Assembly (NCBI RefSeq): GCF_000719705.1
Contig: NZ_JOHO01000052.1
Coordinates: forward strand, 9,397 to 73,396
DNA: 64,000 nt
Source: Streptomyces sp. NRRL S-350
Lineage (GTDB): Bacteria; Actinomycetota; Actinomycetes; Streptomycetales; Streptomycetaceae
Reading direction: 5' to 3'
Under the pieces are notes generated by a model. It was not told the origin of the DNA. It saw only the letters and a list, made by a program, of their open reading frames with translations, and did not search any database. Made by a program: the position numbers and the translations under genes. The stretch's first letter is position 1. The number at the start of each line of letters is the position of its first letter. This document shows positions 829 to 35,976 of this stretch, in pieces.

Positions 829-907
829 TGCGCCGGGCGCGCCGAGGACCTTCCCGGGAACCGGGCGGGGACGGGCGCGCGCGGCGCGAAAAGCTGACAC
901 TGATGTT

Positions 908-1011
908 GAAGCTGACCAGGGGTCACAGTGGAGGTTCGAGTCCTCCCCCCGGCACCACTCGCCGGGGTAGCCCAAACAGGCAGAGGCAGACCCCGTGAAT
1001 CTCAGACTCTC
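908..1011 (+). ncRNA. Permuted tRNA-like RNA, unit A
   Basis: tRNA parts appear in circularly permuted order. First come the 3' anticodon-stem strand GGGGTC (919-924), a 5-nt variable region, and the T arm: stem GGAGG/CCTCC with loop TTCGAGT (930-946). Then follow the acceptor strand CCCCGGC (947-953), discriminator A and an encoded CCA (955-957). After a 3-nt linker, the 5' acceptor strand GCCGGGG (961-967), TA, a D arm (970-987) and the 5' anticodon strand GACCCC (989-994) follow. The acceptor pairs 7/7 and the anticodon stem 6/6. Outside these, 908-915 can pair with 1002-1011 with two bulged bases (A1006, C1009), closing the RNA ends. This resembles YrlA-type Y RNAs (tRNA mimics bound by Ro60) or a permuted tRNA gene. 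A normal-order tRNA cannot be folded here. A degraded tandem tRNA array is the alternative. Confidence 0.6.
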
Positions 1012-1051
1012 GCTCCAGTCTCAGCATTCGCCGCCGAACACCGGATCGACC

Positions 1052-1158
1052 GGGTGCGGACGAATATCGACGAATGCAGGTTCAAGTCCTGTCTGTGCCG
1101 CTCCGTGGCACGGTAGTTCAAAGGCAGAACGCGTCGATTTCAACCTGATCCGCGACCC
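1052..1158 (+). ncRNA. Permuted tRNA-like RNA, unit B (UUC loop)
   Basis: This second unit has the same permuted layout as unit A. The 3' anticodon strand CGACG (1068-1072) leads into a T arm: GCAGG (1076-1080), loop TTCAAGT, CCTGT (one G-U pair). Acceptor strand CTGTGCC (1093-1099) and G1100 follow, without CCA. After a 6-nt linker come GGCACGG (1107-1113), TA, a D arm GTTC/GAAC with loop AAAGGCA (1116-1130), and CGTCG (1132-1136). The acceptor pairs 7/7 with one G-U and the anticodon stem pairs 5/5. The loop after 1136 reads ATTTCAA, a normal anticodon loop with U33 and UUC (Glu). The ends 1052-1060 and 1149-1158 form nine base pairs with one bulged G1154, like the bulged outer stem of Y RNAs. 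The variable region is only 3 nt. Confidence 0.6.
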
Positions 1159-1195
1159 TTGAACGTGCCGGTGTGCGCAATTGGGCGGCACACAG

Positions 1196-1226
1196 GGGCC
1201 CGGGAGCAGGCTACGCTCCCGGGCCC
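1196..1226. terminator. Bidirectional hairpin after RNA units
   Basis: A perfect 11-bp GC stem (1196-1206 with 1216-1226) has a 9-nt loop. It lies 37 bases after RNA unit B and about 60 bases beyond the stop of the converging Imm49 gene, so it can end both transcripts. Confidence 0.65.
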
Positions 1227-4881: not shown

Positions 4882-5631
4882 TCAGCCGCGCGGCGTGGCG
4901 GCGGTGTCCGGGGTCGTCCCGGATCCGGCGTAGAGGACGTCGCGTCCCTGTTCCGCGGCGCGCAGGAGCCCTTCGCTGACGAAGTCGAGGAAGCGGGCGG
5001 CGTTTTCGAGGCGGGTGGCGGCGGGGGTGCCGCGGCCGAGGATGCCGACGCCCTGGCGTGCGGTCTCGATGAACTGGTCGTTGGCGCGGGCGCTGCGGAT
5101 CATCGACTGGTACCAGAGGTCGTCGTCGACGACGTACCGCTCGCGGCGGCGTTCGTCGCGTTCCCGGCGGACGAGTTCCAGGCCTTCCAGGAACGTGATC
5201 GCCTTGGAGACGGACGCCGGGCTGACCTGGAGGCGCTGGGCGAGTTCGGCGGCGGTGTGGCTGCCGGTGTCGGTGGTGTAGAGGCAGCCGAGGACCCGGG
5301 CCATCATCTTGGGCAGGCCCGAGGTCATGAAGACGGTGGTGAGGGTCTCCTGGTAGTCGCGCACGGCCTCGGGGTCGCGCCCGTGGACCTGCGGGAGGGC
5401 GTGCGGGTCCTGGGGCGCGGCGGCCTGGGTGCGGCGGCGGGTGCGCTGCTGGGTGGCGCGGTGGGCCAGGTCGGCGCGGTAGCCGGCGGGGCCGCCGTTG
5501 CGCATCACCTCGCGCGTGATCGTGGAGGTCGGGCGGTCGAGGCGTCTGGCGATCTCCGCGTAGGCGAGGTTGTCGGAGAGTCCCAGCGCGATCTGCTGGC
5601 GCTCCTGCTGCGTGAGCCTGCCTCCCGGCAT
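4882..5631 (-). CDS. Transcriptional regulator: HTH_38-like N-terminus with GbsR/MarR-like winged helix
   Basis: This 249-aa protein has two DNA-binding modules. Residues 5-45 (LTQQERQQIALGLSDN..., SDNLAYAEIARRLDRPTSTI) match the HTH found at the start of IS30-type transposases. Residues about 100-180 carry a GbsR/MarR-like winged helix (AAELAQRLQVSPASVSKAI). A dimerisation-like C-terminal helix follows. The ATG at 5631 has GGGAG upstream; starts up to 5715 are possible. It diverges from the DUF4097/serine hydrolase genes, and long inverted repeats sit between them, so it probably controls both directions. The domain pairing is known in streptomycetes, but the ligand is not. Confidence 0.75.
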   Translation of the reverse strand: MPGGRLTQQERQQIALGLSDNLAYAEIARRLDRPTSTITREVMRNGGPAGYRADLAHRATQQRTRRRTQAAAPQDPHALPQVHGRDPEAVRDYQETLTTVFMTSGLPKMMARVLGCLYTTDTGSHTAAELAQRLQVSPASVSKAITFLEGLELVRRERDERRRERYVVDDDLWYQSMIRSARANDQFIETARQGVGILGRGTPAATRLENAARFLDFVSEGLLRAAEQGRDVLYAGSGTTPDTAATPRG

Positions 5632-35904: not shown

Positions 35905-35976
35905 TGGAGCGCCGGGCCCGAATCGAACGAACCCCTCCCACTGAAAGTGGGCGTGCTACCGCTGCACCACCGACGC
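35905..35976 (-). tRNA. tRNA-Glu(UUC)-like gene
   Basis: The reverse strand of 35905-35976 folds as a tRNA with encoded CCA. The acceptor is GCGTCGG/CCGGCGC (one G-U) and the D arm is GTGC/GCAC. The anticodon loop is CTTTCAG (anticodon UUC, bases 35943-35945 on the plus strand) on a 4-bp plus one mismatch stem. The T arm is GTTCG/CGGGC with two G-U pairs and loop TTCGATT. The variable region is 3 nt and the discriminator is U, not the usual G of tRNA-Glu. It is a normal-order gene but atypical in the T stem and discriminator. A terminator follows. Confidence 0.75.

Follow-up and report, generated by a model that had tools for sequence, protein, structure and literature searches.

In Streptomyces sp. 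NRRL S-350, a gene of the family DUF7873 is followed by two short units in which the parts of a tRNA stand in permuted order, and this locus raises the question of what these units are and with which protein they work. The window analysed is the whole stretch of 64,000 nt (contig NZ_JOHO01000052.1, positions 9,397 to 73,396), and the features described below lie on its forward (+) strand unless another strand is named. The DUF7873 gene (PF25283; 64..795, 243 aa, Pfam 398.6 bits against a cut-off of 27) is the proposed protein partner. The first-pass annotation, made from the letters of the window, had read 908-1158 as two tandem RNAs of circularly permuted tRNA architecture and had offered two explanations, namely permuted tRNA genes or a tandem YrlA-type Y RNA pair. 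The two units, called RNA A and RNA B here, are structured and conserved, mimic tRNA, are linked to DUF7873 and occur where Ro60 is undetected.

Architecture of the two RNA units

In each unit, the T arm and the 3' acceptor strand precede the 5' acceptor strand and the D arm; the acceptor stem is capped by a 7-nt loop, and the strand ends pair as a basal stem at the place of the anticodon arm. RNA A, which has a leucine-tRNA-like D arm, extends over 893..1025, with support from the R2 covariance model and the minimum-free-energy fold, and RNA B extends over 1038..1174, with support from the R1 model and its fold, giving 133 nt and 137 nt between the terminal helices, whose ends are predicted. 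The limits first proposed were therefore too narrow, since the terminal helices widen both units. The basal stem of A is formed by GCTGACACTG (893..902) and CAGTCTCAGC (1016..1025), which are complementary at 9/10 positions and are supported by the sequence, the fold, RNAalifold on 29 relatives and the flank-swap test. Further inwards, a helix at the anticodon-stem position, seen in sequence and fold, joins 919..924 to 989-994 (6/6 pairs), and the sequence then shows a T arm (930..946; stem 930-934/942-946, T loop TTCGAGT at 935-941), an acceptor hairpin (947..967; stem 947-953/961-967, 7/7 paired) with the closing loop ACCACTC (954-960), which starts A-CCA, and a D arm of leucine-tRNA type (970..987).

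Similarly, the basal stem of B pairs ACACCGG (1038..1044) with CCGGTGT (1168..1174) in the fold, and all five pairs of its consensus helix show compensatory changes. It is followed by a conserved internal loop that is a proposed protein site, with ATCGA on the 5' side (1045..1049; 4/5 columns at least 90% identical, n = 40 sequences) and, on the 3' side (1159..1165; 6/7 columns at least 90% identical, two of them invariant, n = 40), TTGAACG in the window versus TTAAACG in relatives. A helix at the anticodon-stem position (1068..1072 with 1132-1136, 5/5 pairs; sequence and fold) leads to the T arm (1076..1092; stem 1076-1080/1088-1092, T loop TTCAAGT at 1081-1087), the acceptor hairpin (1093..1113; stem 1093-1099/1107-1113, 7/7 with one G-U, loop GCTCCGT at 1100-1106) and the D arm (1116..1130), all read from the sequence. 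The pairing first claimed for both acceptor stems and both anticodon-position helices was thus recovered in full.

The minimum-free-energy folds of A and B hold the T arms, acceptors and D arms within a closed basal stem, with fold energy z values of -3.0 for A and -2.1 for B, and only 2/200 and 4/200 shuffles, respectively, folded equally well; the permuted tRNA architecture in two tandem units accordingly holds. A pattern scan in its strict form (acceptor 7/7, T stem 5/5, TTC and a D arm) matched A and B alone in the 64-kb window, and the loose form added one match per strand. On the 3' side of B, a GC-rich hairpin without a T run (1196..1226), found by eye, may mark the transcript end; a terminator scan of 700-1300 found none, and the combined promoter and terminator scan, which is ill-suited to a GC-rich actinomycete, was empty.

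Covariation and covariance models

The stems are maintained by compensatory change in both types. In 40 sequences of type B, 26/28 predicted pairs show it, with the terminal helix and the second basal helix represented as well as 4/5 pairs of the T arm, 7/7 of the acceptor and 3/4 of the D arm, while the internal loop ATCGA/TTAAACG between these two basal helices is nearly fixed (10/12 columns at least 90% identical). In 42 sequences of type A, compensatory change was found in 14/15 core pairs, with 4/5 in the T arm, 7/7 in the acceptor and 3/3 in the D arm; the basal helices of A are missed by RNAalifold in this alignment and found in a tighter alignment of 29 sequences. In the flank-swap test, the 5' and 3' flanks of one sequence paired better with each other than swapped flanks did, at -27.6 versus -20.5 kcal/mol for A (p = 4e-7, n = 34) and -27.6 versus -18.3 kcal/mol for B (p = 1e-12, n = 38). 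Normal tRNAs accompanied by uncompensated permuted stems, which the first-pass annotation had named as the finding that would speak against it, were not what the relatives contained.

Two covariance models were built, R1 for type B from an alignment of 40 units and R2 for type A from 30 units; the training units come mostly from viral and phage loci, and the tests ran partly on the same loci. On the window, R1 scores 135.7 bits at 1019-1182 and R2 123.7 bits at 889-1025. R2 also matches the loci of 29/29 relatives and six of ten awkward loci, the exceptions being L046, L137, L138 and L154. Among 90 loci (phage, viral and others), R1 matches 86 at E <= 0.01, the four without a match being L137, L138, L154 and L174, the last of which ends about 130 nt past the gene.

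Linkage to DUF7873

The DUF7873 family comprises at least 7459 protein homologues; it was found in 36 of the 61 genomes searched, the source genome included, and in 73 phage records. The units follow DUF7873 in Streptomyces and Kitasatospora and in phages of diverse hosts, the named DUF7873 phages having Arthrobacter, Gordonia, Rhodococcus, Pseudanabaena, Klebsiella, Rhizobium and Vibrio as hosts and one being named after Microcoleus. A strict unit was found within 700 nt downstream of DUF7873 at 80/80 genome loci, 58/77 viral loci and in 8/9 named phages; under the loose rule, at least one unit follows the gene at 63/77 viral loci and none at 14/77. The scan controls gave 0/166 antisense, 1/166 upstream and 2/155 further downstream, and dinucleotide shuffles of the downstream regions gave 0/1680 in the strict and 19/1680 in the loose form. 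Two units follow the gene (loose rule) at 64/80 genome loci, 31/77 viral loci and in 4/9 named phages, so paired units are not universal at DUF7873 loci, and the remaining unit-bearing loci hold a single unit. At the 91 two-unit loci, the first T loop follows the gene match by a median of 99 nt (range 52-321).

Some loci depart from this arrangement. In the Microcoleus phage (L043), both units are shifted by about 1.8 kb from DUF7873; at L160 the pair lies upstream of DUF7873, and at L162 it lies on the opposite strand. A single unit each was found in Rhizobium phage RHph_TM30 and Vibrio phage D517, that of D517 being weak (R1 31.4 bits, R2 no match), and the two units of the Klebsiella phage also give weak fits (R1 44.3, R2 51.1 bits). 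In four phages (L038, L039, L040 and L045), DUF7873 and the units lie within or adjoin tRNA arrays, and the unit-bearing stretch carries no annotated feature in the records. At one viral locus (L152, 3001-3723), the DUF7873 frame contains one in-frame stop, for which recoding or a sequencing error is possible.

When R1 was run across the 61 genomes, 36 full-length matches of 110-145 bits were obtained in 35 genomes, all of which carry DUF7873; in the one DUF7873 genome left, the match is partial (51.2 bits) and reaches the contig end beside the DUF7873 gene, and the genome with two DUF7873 genes carries two strong R1 RNAs. Of the 25 genomes that lack DUF7873, 13 belong to the same genus, and none of the 25 has a strong full-length match (above 110 bits); several show weak full-length matches of 43-45 bits, and the best matches listed for them reach at most 45 bits when full-length and 49 when partial. 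Among the R1 matches listed, the best other place outside DUF7873 loci scores 51.7 bits; this search used stricter filters, by which weak matches are lost, and listed best matches only. Three weaker R1 places examined in the source genome were two tandem tRNA pairs, one of them a weak full-length match, and the YrlA-like unit beside Ro60. Two R1 training loci (L090 and L092) likely come from two of the 61 genomes, and the others contributed no known locus. Since the loci share descent, the counts are not independent events, and the linkage indicates association rather than contact.

tRNA identity of the mimics

The isotype test covered the 91 two-unit loci with acceptors paired 7/7, in which units were classed by order alone and distinct D arms were counted within three locus groups. 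Among first units, leucine tRNA is the closest isotype for 56/59 distinct D arms, and 84/91 units have A as the discriminator base; bacterial leucine tRNAs carry A73. As a control, real tRNAs of the same loci were nearest to leucine in 9.2/246 non-leucine and 44.5/49 leucine cases. Second units show no isotype preference and have T or G at the discriminator position in 90/91. The closing loop starts with N-CCA in 44/91 first units (32/62 genomic, 12/29 viral or phage) and 12/91 second units. A T immediately precedes the 5' acceptor strand in 45/91 first and 66/91 second units, which would suit RNase P.

Comparison with YrlA and other known systems

The first-pass annotation had called for a covariance search. 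At gathering thresholds, Rfam matches neither unit, and the tRNA model (RF00005) scores at best 13.5 bits against a gathering score of 29; at permissive settings, YrlA (RF02553) is the top match for both, with 24.2 bits for A (909-1012) and 27.1 bits for B (1054-1158), and neither reaches the YrlA gathering score of 69 bits. In the source genome, a tandem tRNA-Arg pair and a tandem tRNA-Gly pair on contig C4 (L212 208-387 and L213 137-321) give false YrlA scores of 34.2 and 33.3 bits, above those of A and B. Such pairs match because the 3' half of one gene runs into the 5' half of the next, so YrlA scores alone are no proof and the relatives decide. On one viral contig with a DUF7873 pair (L006, 5141-5561), extra YrlA-like units and a TROVE match were observed; ARAGORN calls a tRNA-Pro at 5293-5366, so the middle YrlA-like unit may be an artefact. 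Within the window, ARAGORN also calls a tRNA-Glu on the - strand (35905-35976); at its gathering threshold, Rfam gives no tRNA anywhere in the window, and this gene is possibly degenerate.

Members of the YrlA class bind Ro60 at the basal stem and PNPase at the head, and are modified by DusA and TruB. YrlA is described as 90-150 nt long, its two ends pairing into a basal stem and its tRNA-like domain carrying D, T and acceptor arms (PMC8394870), and by that description A and B share with it the tRNA-like head, the large end-paired basal stem and the length. Unlike YrlA, they score far below the Rfam gathering threshold, are linked to DUF7873 instead of Ro60, usually form a tandem of two types, have a conserved basal internal loop of their own and begin with a leucine-tRNA-like RNA. 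The earlier suggestion of a tandem YrlA-type pair thus stands as to anatomy, with the closed acceptor, the T and D arms and the basal stem, and falls on the Rfam score and the Ro60 linkage: A and B are not encoded near Ro60 (rsr). For these two reasons they are not filed as YrlA.

Bacterial Y RNAs are presented as Ro60 partners in two papers (PMC7790460, PMC8394870). In the Salmonella rsr-yrlBA-rtcBA operon, the Y RNAs lie beside the gene of their partner, which is Ro60/Rsr (PMC7790460); A and B likewise adjoin the gene of the proposed partner, and unlike that operon, a profile search of the genome gave no TROVE match on the window's contig. Similarly, Listeria phage CKA15 is reported to encode an Rsr and putative Y RNAs, conjectural in the paper's own words (PMC12282133); this would be a phage-borne Y-RNA-type system like the present one, with a Ro60-like protein where the units here have DUF7873. 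Like tmRNA, A and B carry a tRNA-like domain; unlike tmRNA, their acceptor is closed by a loop, and ARAGORN calls neither tRNA nor tmRNA at the units. In the literature searched on Y RNAs, Ro60, permuted tRNAs, Streptomyces and the phages, no report of an A/B-type pair was recognised; the core Y RNA papers of 2014 and 2020 may mention one.

Alternative explanations

Four other accounts of the locus can be weighed. A and B could be ordinary Ro60-bound YrlA RNAs encoded away from Ro60, with DUF7873 as a neighbour or accessory, which would fit the shared architecture and the weak Rfam similarity. In the source genome, TROVE is matched twice, once each on contigs C17 and C46 (the window is on C52), and it occurs in 40/61 genomes and in 29/36 of those with DUF7873, so Ro60 may bind A and B there. 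Against this, TROVE is undetected in 7/36 DUF7873 genomes and in 33/39 DUF7873 phage and viral records, with the reservation that the profile matches these bacterial proteins mostly over about 60 residues and that viral records may be fragments, so some Ro60 genes may be missed; it is present in 6/39 of these records and, among the nine named phages, in Rhizobium phage RHph_TM30 only. In addition, 11 genomes with TROVE lack both DUF7873 and a strong full-length R1 match. Two Ro60-like proteins are encoded in the source genome (L001 868-2823, - strand; L002 691-2268), and upstream of the second gene lies a YrlA-like unit (RF02553 40.7 bits); R1 matches this Ro60-side YrlA in the tRNA core alone (45 bits, positions 59-116), which also argues against A and B being ordinary Ro60-bound YrlA RNAs. 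An account through Ro60 is thus unlikely.

It is still less probable that A and B belong to the DUF7873 mRNA as a structured 3' part, or to the following gene as its leader, and regulate expression by sensing tRNA enzymes; their closeness to the gene (median 99 nt) would suit this, but the two units are distinct and both have a closed terminal stem, the next annotated features vary among phages, the next gene in the window is on the opposite strand, and the pairs at L160 and L162 lie upstream of DUF7873 or on the opposite strand. The other explanation first offered, true permuted tRNA genes that yield working tRNAs once their precursor has been circularised and cut, did not survive. Permuted tRNA genes of some algae and archaea also place the 3' half before the 5' half, and the tRNA arms and the N-CCA loop starts in part of the first units are in keeping with them; A and B differ in that they have no anticodon loop, joining the halves does not restore an anticodon arm, the strands at the anticodon position continue into base-paired helices interrupted by conserved internal loops, the ends pair as a stem, and no intact tRNA was called in the vicinity. 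Bacteria are not known to possess the splicing endonuclease needed for that route, and we regard such genes as very improbable here. Hardly credible is an artefact of a tandem or decayed tRNA array, with the 3' half of one gene adjoining the 5' half of its neighbour, although false YrlA matches of 33-34 bits do arise at identical tandem tRNA genes of the source genome: there is no tRNA in the first 12,000 nt of the contig or near 1 kb of the window, no intact halves that would complete the arms are called at this locus, the loops are 7 nt long, the stems are kept by compensatory change, and R1 scores 110-145 bits at these loci versus at most 52 elsewhere among the places listed.

Proposed function of the DUF7873-linked RNAs

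The tandem Y-RNA-like tRNA mimics likely work with DUF7873, and not with Ro60, as one RNA-protein particle, because the gene and the RNAs recur together in actinomycetes and diverse phages, often where no Ro60 is detected. By analogy, the DUF7873-RNA pair would work like a Y RNA system. Both RNAs would be transcribed, and DUF7873 would grip the basal stems as Ro60 grips Y RNA, the likeliest contacts being the internal loop ATCGA/TTAAACG of B and the conserved basal strands of A. The tRNA-like heads may bind tRNA-handling enzymes such as tRNA modification enzymes, RNase P or PNPase, and the head of A perhaps binds leucyl-tRNA synthetase or a nuclease that cuts leucine tRNA; through such binding, the particle would either recruit the enzyme or act as a decoy for it. 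The position of the units in or beside the tRNA arrays of several phages favours the supply or protection of tRNA during infection as the arena. It seems reasonably probable, with somewhat less assurance, that DUF7873 and its RNAs form a second, Ro60-independent class of Y-RNA type in phages and actinomycetes, composed of a permuted leucine-tRNA mimic and a U73/G73-type mimic, which captures or decoys tRNA-handling or tRNA-cutting enzymes in phage-host conflict. If this is true, tRNA-mimic scaffolds serve more than one protein, DUF7873, an uncharacterised and widespread family, gains a testable role, unannotated RNAs are added to phage tRNA arrays, and the purpose of a leucine-tRNA mimic can be asked.

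The DUF7873 protein and its neighbourhood

The name DUF7873 is absent from the literature searched, and PHROGs and PADLOC gave no family for three proteins. The AlphaFold2 model of DUF7873 (pLDDT 91.7, pTM 0.77) consists of helices plus long strands. A fold search against the PDB and viral models gave no match at E <= 0.001, by which a new fold is not yet proven; structural comparison gave middling Z values to unrelated folds, the PDB sequence search reached a best E of 0.084, and no RNA-binding fold was recognised among these matches. A kinship of DUF7873 with Ro60 by sequence was rejected, as hhalign against the Ro60-like protein of the source genome gave a probability of 0.7% and Pfam gives DUF7873 only. 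The protein has no net positive charge (34 K+R, 34 D+E), and in an alignment of 64 sequences, K/R makes up at least 80% of 13 columns, of which five fall at 155-171. The gene that immediately follows the RNA pair in the window lies on the - strand (1285-2328) and has a match to the Imm49 immunity protein.
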